NCBI GenBank assembly: GCA_026994915.1
Contig: JALWPY010000169.1
Location: 1 to 41,228, forward strand
Reading direction: 5' to 3'
Origin: Campylobacterales bacterium
GTDB lineage: Bacteria; Campylobacterota; Campylobacteria; Campylobacterales; QNZT01
Length of the DNA stretch: 41,228 nucleotides
In this document: positions 6,250 through 10,679 of the stretch, piece by piece
How the letters are laid out: the number at the start of each line of letters is the position of its first letter
How positions within the stretch are numbered: position 1 is the first letter of the stretch
The notes under the pieces: model-generated
Told to the model about the DNA's origin: nothing
What the model saw: the letters and a program-made list of their open reading frames with translations, nothing else
Databases searched by the model: none
Made by a program: the position numbers and the translations under genes

Positions 6250-6360
6250 ATCAACAATTCCTTTATAAACTGGAGATATTTTATCTGAAAATATTTAAAA
6301 AGGCGTTATCACCGCACCAATAAACATACATAATTTTTGAGAGTACGGGAAGGAGTGAGA

Positions 6361-6419
6361 TGTGTGTCAAAAAAACTGAAGGACTAGCCGTAGCTAATTC
6401 GAAGTTTTTTTGGCATACA
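6361..6419. repeat. Hairpin C: 17-bp stem, 25-nt loop with conserved core
   Basis: Arms 6361-6377 and 6403-6419 pair over 17 positions, two of them G:U in RNA. The loop (6378-6402) contains the 19-base core AGGACTAGCCGTAGCTAAT, which itself can form a small TAGC-CGTA-GCTA hairpin. The loop is the exact complement of the loop of hairpin D, so in a single transcript the two could pair. Confidence 0.7.
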
Positions 6420-6476
6420 GATCGCTTCTTCCCGTGCTCCCCGAAGGGTGCAGTGCTTTTGTCCATACTCTGCATT

Positions 6477-6517
6477 AGATTTTCTTGCATTAGCTACGGC
6501 TAGTCCTACGAAAATCT
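6477..6517. repeat. Hairpin D: 8-bp stem, loop complementary to hairpin C
   Basis: Arms AGATTTTC (6477-6484) and GAAAATCT (6510-6517) enclose a 25-base loop holding the reverse complement of the hairpin C core (6489-6507). The stem sequence has no similarity to that of hairpin C although loop length and loop core are the same. Confidence 0.65.
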
Positions 6518-6591
6518 GCCTTGATTATGAACAAAATCACTGCATCAAAATTTACGTATGTTTATTGGTGCGGTGATAAGTTTAAAGCGGC

Positions 6592-6616
6592 CCGGAGCCC
6601 GAAACTGCGGCTCCGG
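6592..6616 (-). terminator. Hairpin after murG, possible terminator
   Basis: Directly after the murG stop the minus strand can form an 8-bp stem CCGGAGCC / GGCTCCGG with a 9-base loop. It is followed by GCCGCTTTAAAC rather than a U-run, so it is a weak intrinsic terminator candidate. Confidence 0.45.
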
Positions 6617-7633
6617 TCAATAACCGAGGTAGTCGACGATTCTGGCGGCACCGTCGGGGGCGATGGTACCCCGGAGCCCCTCACTCATGCGGGCGATATC
6701 CGCATCCAGCACCATCTCCAGATGTTCGGGTGTCAGGGCATCCTGCCGCACGACGAAAGAGAGCCCTTTGTCGGCGAGATATTTGGCGTTGTAGTACTGG
6801 TGATCGCCCGCTGCGTAGGGATAGGGCACGTAGAGTGCGGGCAGCTGCGATGCCGCCAGCTCCCAGAGCGTGCCCGCGCCCGCACGGCAGATCGCGAAAT
6901 CGGCCTCCGCGATCTTTCGGTAGAGTTTTTTGTCGAAGGCGAAGAGATCGGCATCGATACCCTCTTCGTCGTAGAATTTTCGCAGCGCTTCCAGATCGCG
7001 GTTGCCGCTCTGGTGGATGATTTTGATCCCTCTCTCATGCAGGGTGCGTGCGACACTTTTGGCGAACTCGTTGATGGCGGTGGCGCCCTGTGAACCGCCC
7101 AGGAAGATGATCGTTTTGATCTCCTTACGCACCCGTGCGTTGCGAAAAAAGACTTCGCTGACGAGATAGTCTTTGACGGGAGAGTCTTGCATGTAGGCGG
7201 AGAAGATCGCGTTGGCACGGCGGGCGAAGAGTGCGTTGAGGCGTCCCATGACGGCGTTTTGCTCATGAATGTAGAAAACTTTTCTCTGCCAGATCGCGGC
7301 GAGTGTCGCGGGTGCTGCGGCATATCCTCCGACCGAAAAGATCGTTTCGACCCCCTCCTCTTTGAAGATTCTTCCCGCTTCGCGCGCCGCTGTGATGATC
7401 TTCGCCATACTTTTGAGTTTGCCGACGGCCCCTTTGTCGACCACGCTTTCGATCTCGAAAAAGTGTCGGGAAGCGAACCCCTCGTCCTCTCCGAACCACA
7501 TCCTGTCCTGCCCCGTCGCCGAGCCCAGAAAGATCGGTTTGATACCGCGCCTGTTGAGCTCTTCGCGAATCGCCCGCGCGATACTCAGATGCCCGCCGGT
7601 GCCTCCGCCCGTAATCGCTATCTGCTTTTTCAA
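6617..7633 (-). CDS. murG: UDP-GlcNAc:undecaprenyl-PP-MurNAc-pentapeptide GlcNAc transferase
   Basis: MurG, a GT28-family enzyme of 338 residues on the inner face of the cytoplasmic membrane, adds GlcNAc to lipid I to form lipid II. Residues 7-15 carry the TGGGTGGH lipid/nucleotide loop. Later come the HEQNAVMGRLN segment, the FLGGSQGATAIN loop and the C-terminal ICRAGAGTLWELAA UDP-GlcNAc region. The start is a TTG at 7633 overlapping the ftsW stop (TTGA), so translation is coupled to ftsW. The pair ftsW-murG is a cell-wall/division cassette. It ends 38 bases before the inverted-repeat element. Confidence 0.95.
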   Translation of the reverse strand: MKKQIAITGGGTGGHLSIARAIREELNRRGIKPIFLGSATGQDRMWFGEDEGFASRHFFEIESVVDKGAVGKLKSMAKIITAAREAGRIFKEEGVETIFSVGGYAAAPATLAAIWQRKVFYIHEQNAVMGRLNALFARRANAIFSAYMQDSPVKDYLVSEVFFRNARVRKEIKTIIFLGGSQGATAINEFAKSVARTLHERGIKIIHQSGNRDLEALRKFYDEEGIDADLFAFDKKLYRKIAEADFAICRAGAGTLWELAASQLPALYVPYPYAAGDHQYYNAKYLADKGLSFVVRQDALTPEHLEMVLDADIARMSEGLRGTIAPDGAARIVDYLGY

Positions 7634-8790
7634 TACTTCACCTTTTTGCTGATCATCAATACCATACCGATCGCCACGGCATGCGCCATCAGAGAGCTGC
7701 CTCCGTAGCTGAGAAACGGCACCGCCAGCCCCTTCACCGGTGTAATCCCCGTCACACCGAAACTGTTGATAAAGAAGGTCGTCGCGAACATGATCGCGAT
7801 ACCGAGCGCAAAGAGTGAATAGACCCTGTTTTCACTCCTGTTTGCGATGCGGAGCATGCGGTAGATCAGGATGAAAAAGAGCAATACCACCGCCAGTACA
7901 CCCACCATCCCCAGTTCCTCCGCAATTCCCGCCAGGATAAAGTCGGTATGCACTTCGGAGAGGAACCCCAGCTTCAGCGTACCGTTGCCCAGCCCCACTC
8001 CGAAGAGGCCGCCATGCTGGATCGCATCGTAGGCATTGGAGACCTGGTAGGGTTCGTAGGCATCCGAAACCCGCAGTTTGGCCGCGACGGAGTCGGGGAG
8101 AAAGGAGAGGACCACATTCTGGATATTGCTCCACCATGACTTGACCCGAAGAACCCGGTGTTCGGACCCGACGATGGCAAAGACCACAACCGCGATGATC
8201 CCCAGCATGGTCCATGCAAAGAAGCGGGTACTCGTCCCCGCCATCGAGCCCATCACCACCAGTGCCAGTGCAAGCACGATCACCTGCCCGATATCGTTTT
8301 GCATGATGGCGATCAGATAGGTGACGACACCAAACACCAGCAGATAGGGCCAGAAGACCCTGAACTCCTCCTTGAGGGTTTTGGGTGTTTCGTCAAGTTT
8401 GCGCGAAAAACTCCACGCCAGAAAGACGATGAAGCCTACCTTGAAAAACTCAACCGGTGCCAGAGAGAGAAACCCGAGCCTGATCCAGCGCTTGGCCCCA
8501 CCGATCTCGGTGACGATCGACGTGGGCAGGAAGGGCATTACCGTCATGAGAAAGAGGAAGATGAAAAAGAGCCCGAATCCAAGCGGCAGAAACCATCGGT
8601 CGGGATCGAGCTGCGATATCGCCCAGATCAGAAAGATCGAAAAGATCCCCACCCCGAACTGCCGTATGAAGAAGTGAAACTCGTTGCCGTAGGTGTTGAG
8701 GCTGACAAAGGTGGTGAGTGAGAGTGAAAAGATGATGCCCAGCGCAATTAATATGACACTGACATAGAAGATCGTTTTATCTGCCTGCAA
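7630..8790 (-). CDS. ftsW: SEDS-family peptidoglycan glycosyltransferase FtsW
   Basis: A polytopic membrane protein of 386 residues. SEDS proteins polymerise lipid II at the septum together with a class B PBP. The C-terminal signature VKGLAVPFLSYGGSSLMAHA (about 350-370) and the FGVGLGNGTLKLGFLSEVHTDF region identify the family. Its pairing with murG and its divergence from flgB/fliE/ftsI support FtsW over RodA, matching the order known in Helicobacter pylori (HP1556-HP1560). The start is TTG at 8790, with TAAGG about 9 bases upstream; an ATG six bases upstream is out of frame and meets a stop. Confidence 0.93.
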   Translation of the reverse strand: MQADKTIFYVSVILIALGIIFSLSLTTFVSLNTYGNEFHFFIRQFGVGIFSIFLIWAISQLDPDRWFLPLGFGLFFIFLFLMTVMPFLPTSIVTEIGGAKRWIRLGFLSLAPVEFFKVGFIVFLAWSFSRKLDETPKTLKEEFRVFWPYLLVFGVVTYLIAIMQNDIGQVIVLALALVVMGSMAGTSTRFFAWTMLGIIAVVVFAIVGSEHRVLRVKSWWSNIQNVVLSFLPDSVAAKLRVSDAYEPYQVSNAYDAIQHGGLFGVGLGNGTLKLGFLSEVHTDFILAGIAEELGMVGVLAVVLLFFILIYRMLRIANRSENRVYSLFALGIAIMFATTFFINSFGVTGITPVKGLAVPFLSYGGSSLMAHAVAIGMVLMISKKVKY

Positions 8791-8852
8791 CCATCAAACC
8801 TTAGACTGAAAGATATTTCGATTCTACAAAAATTTTGGTTAATGGATATTTA

Positions 8853-8861
8853 TGTTATAAT
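8853..8861 (+). promoter_or_regulatory. Candidate extended -10 promoter in ftsW-flgB spacer
   Basis: TGtTATAAT forms a perfect extended -10 in an AT-rich stretch about 95 bases before flgB. No clear -35 is visible, as is common for vegetative promoters in this group. It could give basal flgB expression in addition to the sigma-54 site. Confidence 0.3.
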
Positions 8862-8908
8862 TATTTAAATAATTTTAATTTTTTACTCTAAGATGAAATT
8901 ATTGATTT

Positions 8909-8924
8909 TGGTATAGCTTTTGCT
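8909..8924 (+). promoter_or_regulatory. Sigma-54 promoter of flgB operon
   Basis: TGGTATAGCTTTTGCT contains the GG and GC dinucleotides with exactly ten bases between them, matching the RpoN -24/-12 consensus TGGCAC-N5-TTGCA/T. It ends 33 bases before the flgB ATG. In Campylobacter and Helicobacter the rod genes flgB, flgC and fliE belong to the RpoN/FlgSR-dependent flagellar class, so the position fits. Confidence 0.8.
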
Positions 8925-8956
8925 GCTTCCAAATCGATCAAGACAAGCAAGGAGTC

Positions 8957-9388
8957 ATGTTGGGTCTGCATATCAGCAAATCACTGCCGCTGGCGATCGA
9001 AGCGCTCGACTTCCGTGCGATGCGTCAGAAGGTGATCTCGGGCAATATCGCCAATGTCGACACGCCCTACTACCGGGCGCGGGATATCCGTTTCGAAGAT
9101 CTGCTCGCCAAAGAGGCGCAGACGCTTCGCAGTGAAGGTCCCGTTCTCGAGATGGCACTTACAAACCCCATGCATCTGGACCCGATCGATGCGCGGGAGA
9201 GCGGACGGGCGAAGCTCTTTTTCAGGGGCACACACCCGACGCGAAACGACGGCAACAATGTCGACATCGACATCGAGTCGACCGAGATGAGCAAGAACGC
9301 CATTATGTTCGAGGCGCTCACCAACGGGATCAAGAAGCAGGCGATGATCTTCAAAAGTGTCATCGATGCTTCCGGTAAGGTGCAGTAA
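8957..9388 (+). CDS. flgB: Flagellar proximal rod protein FlgB
   Basis: 143 residues, the usual FlgB length. The N-terminal rod motif SGNIANVDTPYYRAR (28-42) and the C-terminal helix with MSKNAIMFEALTNGIKKQ are diagnostic. FlgB is exported by the flagellar type III system and forms the proximal rod with FlgC and FliE. A strong AAGGAG lies only two bases before the ATG, so the adjacent TTG codon (8960) with better spacing could also be used; the product would lose one residue. A sigma-54 promoter lies just upstream. Unusually, flgC does not follow directly: 331 non-coding bases with two long hairpins intervene. Confidence 0.95.
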   Translation: MLGLHISKSLPLAIEALDFRAMRQKVISGNIANVDTPYYRARDIRFEDLLAKEAQTLRSEGPVLEMALTNPMHLDPIDARESGRAKLFFRGTHPTRNDGNNVDIDIESTEMSKNAIMFEALTNGIKKQAMIFKSVIDASGKVQ

Positions 9389-9431
9389 CGCACTGTAAAT
9401 AACTATCAACAAACAGAGACGGAAGTGATAA

Positions 9432-9506
9432 GGTATGTTTGTCAATTAAAAAAGAGGCTCAGACCAACGGGAGGATTTGCCCTCTTTTTTAATTGACAAA
9501 CATACC
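9432..9506. repeat. Hairpin A: perfect 26-bp stem in flgB-flgC gap
   Basis: Arms 9432-9457 and 9481-9506 are perfectly complementary over 26 bases and enclose a 23-base loop (9458-9480). Read on the minus strand, the loop side contains AAATCCTCCC, five variable bases and TCTGAGCCTC; the same pattern appears on the plus strand in hairpin B. There is no U-run after either arm, so it is not a standard terminator. The 331-base gap 9389-9719 holds this hairpin, hairpin B and otherwise no gene. Confidence 0.85.
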
Positions 9507-9561
9507 AACCAAGTCAACCACGGTTTATAAAATCAAAGTCGGAACTTAGTCCGGCAGCTCT

Positions 9562-9669
9562 TTTTTTGCGGCTTCAAAAAGAGGACAAAAGTAGCGAATA
9601 GCGGTTGCGAAGCAAACTTTCCGCGAAATCCTCCCTTCGATCTGAGCCTCTTTTTGAAGCCGCAAAAAA
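9562..9669. repeat. Hairpin B: perfect 23-bp stem, inverted relative of hairpin A
   Basis: Arms 9562-9584 and 9647-9669 pair perfectly over 23 bases around a 62-base loop. The 3' end of the loop (9626-9650) reads AAATCCTCCC, TTCGA, TCTGAGCCTC, matching the minus strand of hairpin A except for the central five bases. The outer stem (GCGGCTTC / GAAGCCGC) is unrelated to hairpin A's (GTCAATT / AATTGAC), yet each is paired with its own partner. The loop also has an internal GCGG...CCGC pairing. Confidence 0.82.
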
Positions 9670-9719
9670 GGAACATACAATGTTCAATCTGAGCGACTGC
9701 TGAGTAAGAGAGCGGGCGG

Positions 9720-10524: not shown

Positions 10525-10529
10525 TCCTC

Positions 10530-10679
10530 TGAAAAATGCCGCTTCACTCAAACGGCTTCACGGTGGGGCCCCAAAATCTCTGTGAGATTTTGACCCTTCC
10601 GCTGCAGATGTTATTCGTGAATCACATTTTTCAAAGGACTCAAGTTATGAAATCATCTGCATGAAAGTGCGGATGATTT
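10530..10679. repeat. Cluster of nested inverted repeats between fliE and ftsI
   Basis: The spacer contains several pairings: TGAAAAATG (10530-10538) with CATTTTTCA (10625-10633); CAAAATCTC/GAGATTTTG (10572-10580 and 10584-10592, loop of 3); TGCAGATG (10603-10610) with CATCTGCA (10654-10661); and AAATCATC/GATGATTT (10650-10657 and 10672-10679). None has a proper U-run on the plus strand. They may terminate or attenuate the flagellar operon before ftsI. No shared loop motif with hairpins A-D was seen. Confidence 0.55.

Follow-up and report, generated by a model that had tools for sequence, protein, structure and literature searches.

The stretch of DNA analysed here, referred to as the window, is a 41,228-nt contig (JALWPY010000169.1; C169) from a Campylobacterales bacterium whose genome (G000) is a 2.2-Mb draft, 87% complete; its relatives with named records are metagenome assemblies of Campylobacterota. 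Two of its intergenic regions carry pairs of hairpins: C and D lie in the gap between alaS and murG, and A and B in that between flgB and flgC (genes named by NCBIfam; Table 1). The conserved head of hairpin C (GGACT-ministem-AATTC, about 6380-6398) and that of D, its reverse complement, form a perfect 19-nt inverted repeat (6380-6398/6489-6507). In hairpin A the head occupies 9454-9484 (GAGG-CTCAGACCAACGGGAGGATTTGC-CCTC) and in B it runs on the minus strand from about 9650 down to 9626, the two forming a 33-nt inverted repeat with 88% identity. There is no relation between the A/B and the C/D loops. An earlier reading of this DNA, made without database searches (the sequence-only reading), had proposed four hairpins in two unrelated loop families sharing one architecture. 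This is confirmed, and a third family can be added (Table 1).

With a stem score of at least 14 and a loop of up to 60 nt, only C and A were found in the 41 kb of the window, versus 0.04 in Markov shuffles. A scan of the window for hairpin pairs with reverse-complement loops returned none, as did 100 shuffles; D, with its short stem, and B, with a 40-nt insert, fall below the thresholds used, and support for the pairs comes instead from comparison of copies.

Spread and variation of the A/B family

A DNA search of G000 with the A/B stretch gave 39 matches and a pattern search 21 copies (reversed control pattern, 0). By pattern search, 15 of 59 genomes, G000 included, carry the family, which occurs on 108 or more contigs from GTDB species; all records listed are from Campylobacterota. 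It is present in several families of the order, which excludes local template switching in a single strain as an explanation. None was detected in viral contigs nor, by similarity search, in plasmids or phages.

Aligned copies from G000 share the core GAGG-CTC-AGA-CC-RNM-GG-GAG-GATTTGY-CCTC, a structured head of 27 nt. Nearly every one of them has a stem sequence of its own which is nevertheless paired. Mean identity between copies is 37% in the stem versus 91% in the head, and the median pairing score is 23 for a copy's own arms against 7 for arms taken from other copies. The stems measure 20 bp or more, about 22-26 bp, and pairing is kept in about 97% of cases. In 101 regular-stem copies, selected as having 20 or more of 24 positions paired, stem positions 8-24 are 95-100% paired, and all four Watson-Crick types occur at each position save one. 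The proposal that the loop is conserved and the stem is not thus holds strictly for this family. Three bases of the head are free and follow a marked rule: A..C (59 copies), G..A (59) and A..A (33) are found and G..C is not (0; p = 2e-18). The rule suggests a non-canonical closing pair in the head strand. Such triplets can close DNA mini-hairpins via sheared pairs. The six other close pairs of copies, besides A and B of the window, are all inverted; the units can occur as inverted doublets. By inspection, a TAG before and a CGG after the stem are common in copies from Sulfurimonas only and not in the genus of G000; no base of the foot is conserved across all A/B copies.

The head of hairpin B contains a nested insert (Table 1), and B-like copies carrying it are also present in G002 (C222) and G006 (C34). 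The insert motif is found as well within a D hairpin of G006 (L363, about 170-220). In the G007 ortholog of locus L023 (L344, G007:C88:14320-14840), the inner motif of the A family, GCGACGAGAGGCAGGAGT, forms a hairpin that lacks the central core, as would result from its deletion.

Loci fetched with the exact head pattern retain site and head and differ in stem in many species. Since such loci are biased for the head, the coding flanks of eight G000 sites were also searched in seven congeners and the gaps read. In the ten head-bearing orthologous copies obtained (flgB-flgC included; two are from one genome, and the G000 copy at L024 is itself decayed), only 6 of 240 head positions have changed (97.5% conserved), and the stems match G000 at 9-16 of 22 positions each, 129 of 220 in total (about 59%). 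Heads are conserved between species at orthologous sites whose flanks are only 66-86% identical. At flgB-flgC, the ortholog of hairpin A in G006 has a different, still paired stem, and B is absent. Sites are gained or lost: many orthologous gaps are empty, such as flgB-flgC of G002, which is 14 nt long, and alaS-murG of G002 and G006 is devoid of the C/D element.

The head can also be inverted in place. This is the case between orthologs at L016 (G007), L021 (G003) and L024 (G003), and in about 6 of 22 ortholog groups; L079/L163 have flanks of 77-83% identity and a stem that can still be recognised as shared, with the head in opposite orientations. Inversion at orthologous sites supports the earlier suggestion that one arm is copied onto the other. 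One-armed remnants at L024 (G006 and G007) bear on the idea that the stem is copied from target DNA at insertion, and are explained by deletion as well as by insertion.

Two contigs of G006 (the end of C183 and the start of C84) overlap at L017 with 2 mismatches in the left flank and 0 in the right, and with wholly different stems and neighbouring bases. They look like two haplotypes, although an assembly effect could give the same picture, and polymorphism of the hairpins within one population is possible. G006 contigs often terminate near hairpins. At the start of another (L059, G006:C76:1-700), two inverted, slightly differing copies of one gene start, which reads as argG, surround a hairpin: the arrangement is either a genuine inverted duplication or an assembly chimera caused by the hairpin.

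The four-armed C/D element and a third family

C and D are not a free-standing pair. Both hairpins are real but form the inner arms of a four-armed, 274-nt mobile element (Table 1). Over its aligned copies, 98.2% of cells are paired, versus 87.3% in shuffles and 40-46% in slid controls, and 57 pairs have changed on both sides, versus 31 in shuffles; in hairpin C (helix 2) this is true of 20 of 34 pairs. Mismatches on the plus strand are G.T in 250 cases and A.C in 27, and several G.T pairs are fixed in 34/34 copies. Conservation of the loop but not the stem does not extend to this element: mean column identity is 84% and the stems are largely conserved as well as the loops. Variation is concentrated in hairpin C and the middle of the outer stem, whose left half has a conserved outermost part of about 15 bases (TTATCACCGCRCCAAY) and a middle which varies with compensation. 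The element has no preferred orientation relative to genes.

The C/D element could be an ordinary miniature inverted-repeat transposable element (MITE) of a DDE transposon, with A/B as a decayed relic of another. This would account for its inverted ends of 35 nt, its constant length and its numerous copies. However, no target-site duplication is evident by eye in the flanks of the 34 copies, which are old, no transposase open reading frame lies between distant outer ends in the G004 stretches examined, and the inner arms covary in a strand-specific manner. We consider such an origin the most improbable of those discussed here. In G004, the outer stem alone forms a 59-nt hairpin.

The third family is represented in the window by a hairpin between fliE and a penicillin-binding-protein gene. 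In the copies seen in G003, G006 and G007, the mid-stems differ and the foot and head are largely conserved. In G006, the C/D outer stem encloses a hairpin of the third family. Hairpin units behave as nestable modules.

Table 1. Hairpins and related features of the window
Feature	Positions	Strand	Description
Four-armed element holding C and D	6306-6579	+ (strand with the maintained fold)	274 nt; 34 copies aligned, from at least eight genomes of the family
Outer stem, left half	6306-6340	+	inverted repeat with 6545-6579, 94%; 35-nt end
Hairpin C	6341-6439	+	arms 6341-6377/6403-6439, 81% complementary
Small central hairpin	6440-6448	+	CCC-GAA-GGG, from sequence; helix 4
Arm with hairpin D	6449-6544	+	inner stem 6477-6484/6510-6517, short, read from sequence; helices 5-7
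Outer stem, right half	6545-6579	+	inverted repeat with 6306-6340
Hairpin A	9432-9506	+	arms 9432-9457/9481-9506, 26 bp, 100%
Hairpin B (A/B family)	9559-9672	-	arms 9559-9584/9647-9672, 26 nt, 96%
Nested insert in head of hairpin B	9585-9625		about 40 nt; motif ACCGCTATTCGCTA..TTT
Third hairpin family	10525-10638	+	foot CCTCTG/CAAAGG, head CTCAAACGGCTTC..CGCTGCAGATGTT

Strand-specific folding and its interpretation

A process blind to strand is expected to leave equal numbers of A.C and G.T mismatches. A/B stems, read on the head strand, contain 62 G.T versus 12 A.C (p = 3e-9), and the bias on the messenger RNA (mRNA) strand is the opposite, 7 G.U versus 30 A.C. With the head strand antisense to the genes on either side, the counts are 26 G.T and 1 A.C. 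This imbalance implies that the head-strand fold is the one maintained, and usually not that of the mRNA strand. What is maintained in the A/B family is the fold of the head strand and not a fixed stem sequence. Selection for folding, which the sequence-only reading had put forward, is supported by the strand-specific G.T excess, by the occurrence of all four Watson-Crick types in the paired A/B stems and by covariation in the C/D element.

Template switching alone might keep old palindromes perfect, the heads being alike through recent spread. Block-wise stem change and head inversion are indeed expected products of template switching. The observed mismatches (62 versus 12 in A/B, 250 versus 27 in C/D) are not those of a strand-blind process, however, heads are conserved at orthologous sites despite their diverged flanks, and the head triplet rule needs structural selection. 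A purely mutational origin is quite improbable.

The combination of a strand-specific fold and tolerated inversion would favour single-stranded DNA over RNA as the molecule that folds. More often than not, the head lies on the C-rich strand (95/153 by third-position skew, p = 0.003), and in the complete genome G036 (C1) head orientation follows the replichore in 11 of 12 copies, as judged by GC skew around each. Alternatively, the head strand could be transcribed to give a small hairpin RNA whose head binds a protein, be it a small regulatory RNA, an antisense RNA or a processing signal. Tolerance of G.T and covariation are classic signs of RNA, which cannot be separated from single-stranded DNA by sequence alone. 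Against this, orientation to genes is mixed, a promoter signal is lacking ahead of the head strand, with -10 motifs no more enriched there than on the other side, the mRNA strand is biased in the opposite direction, and heads are inverted between orthologs. No Rfam family was found either: with Rfam 15, the window contains no match at the gathering score, and relaxed thresholds yielded only microRNA look-alikes below threshold. We regard a small RNA as unlikely. A riboswitch or other element of the 5′ untranslated region was rejected in view of the mixed orientation to genes.

A link with a Y1/RAYT transposase had also been envisaged. The hairpins could be REPIN-type elements mobilised by such an enzyme, lost or undetected in some genomes. 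They are short extragenic palindromes, form inverted doublets, and Y1 proteins are found in many relatives. Nevertheless, there is no Y1 match in G036 (complete, with 11 copies by pattern search), G006, G007 or G009, all of which carry the A/B family, the Y1-rich genomes G011 and G045 have no copies, and the stems are not conserved. The link is not borne out and mobilisation of this type appears very improbable. Reverse transcriptase was not detected in G000, G003, G006, G014 or G036. Among the carriers tested, integron integrase (TIGR02249) exceeded the cut-off in G006, G007 and G010 only, and not in G000, G002, G003, G014 or the complete carrier G036. Recombinases of the integron-integrase type are located at G006:C25:15347, G007:C281:437, G010:C9:18800 and G010:C33:82186. 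None of these three enzymes follows the distribution of the A/B family. A Pfam scan of 148 flanking proteins revealed no recurrent transposase, no regulon and no shared theme, and the earlier proposal of a role linked to nearby essential or flagellar genes is not upheld.

The reading we prefer, with a probability of about one half, is that A/B, C/D and the hairpin at 10525 belong to distinct families within a single, hitherto undescribed class of extragenic repeats of Campylobacterota, REP-like and folding as a single strand, with a head read on single-stranded DNA and stems kept paired by selection together with template switching. The basic unit would be a hairpin in which the structured head is conserved and the stem, of roughly fixed length, is largely free in sequence; some families would have a conserved foot as well. 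Units of A/B can form inverted doublets, and units can nest in one another. The head strand would act as a single-stranded DNA hairpin, and a putative protein would recognise the head (and foot), the stem providing a spacer of set length. Unpaired stem variants would be selected against, and template switching during replication would copy one arm onto the other, both keeping stems paired, the latter also inverting the head. The presence of conserved heads in the complete genome G036, with no detectable Y1 or reverse transcriptase, hints at a retained use and not only at recent spread. A literature search limited to open papers brought up no account of repeats of this kind, in agreement with the earlier suggestion that it is undescribed.

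Several points weigh against this reading. With the head strand sense to the genes on either side, there are 6 G.T and 4 A.C mismatches, an excess which is not significant. The replication-strand bias (95/153) is moderate, and gene direction is a confounder. The p-values are too small because orthologous copies depend on one another, most of the genomes are metagenome assemblies, and gene orientation was taken from simple open reading frames. The searches made identified no recognising protein or enzyme, and RNA could still be the acting molecule.

We would also suggest, tentatively, that the hairpins are genome-wide recognition sites of a Campylobacterota system which reads single-stranded DNA by head, foot and stem length, whatever the stem sequence, with several head types in parallel; it might serve, for example, an attC-like recombination or be tied to chromosome replication. 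The pattern points to a putative hairpin-reading protein. In the bacterial palindromic repeats known so far, it is the conserved stem that is recognised. The situation is reversed here, since the head is conserved, the stem is free, the fold of one strand is maintained and head orientation is reversible, and repeat finders which rely on conserved stems would miss such repeats. The dozens of orthologous sites constitute a natural record of how stems are rewritten while remaining paired, by template switching or by compensatory substitution, a long-standing question.

Comparison with known systems

The hairpins resemble repetitive extragenic palindromic (REP) sequences and REPINs with their TnpA-REP (RAYT): they are short palindromes scattered between genes in dozens of copies, can occur as inverted doublets and fold as single strands. 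REP/REPIN repeats of the GTAG and CGTC families conserve their stem, which measures 6-13 bp in GTAG repeats, and a terminal tetranucleotide (PMC3733652, PMC6006769), and both GTAG and CGTC repeats are known from a Sulfurovum strain (PMC3733652). In contrast, the A/B family keeps its head, has a stem of 20 bp or more of free sequence, and its copies are not tracked by a Y1 transposase.

Prokaryotic MITEs and other small mobile intergenic repeats (PMC10969869, PMC2229807) are comparable to the C/D element, which is small and non-coding, has inverted ends, and occurs in many intergenic copies with empty orthologous sites. The C/D element differs from them in its four arms, strand-specific covariation and fixed G.T pairs, and neither target duplication nor transposase was found with it.

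Integron attC sites (PMC2727003, PMC6393395) also act as a folded single strand with a strand preference and a variable stem sequence. Unlike these, A/B copies occur singly between unrelated genes and not in cassette arrays, and an integrase is present in some carriers only, the complete carrier G036 not being one of them. The A/B family has no conserved outer box corresponding to the attC core RYYYAAC ... GTTRRRY, although no systematic motif search was run.

Finally, where inverted repeats undergo template switching, their arms are known to become homogenised and their spacers inverted (PMC8604942, PMC8794818), and both effects are seen in the hairpins described here. The published cases concern yeast genes and RNA genes, whereas here dozens of sites share one conserved spacer and the fold of one strand is selected.

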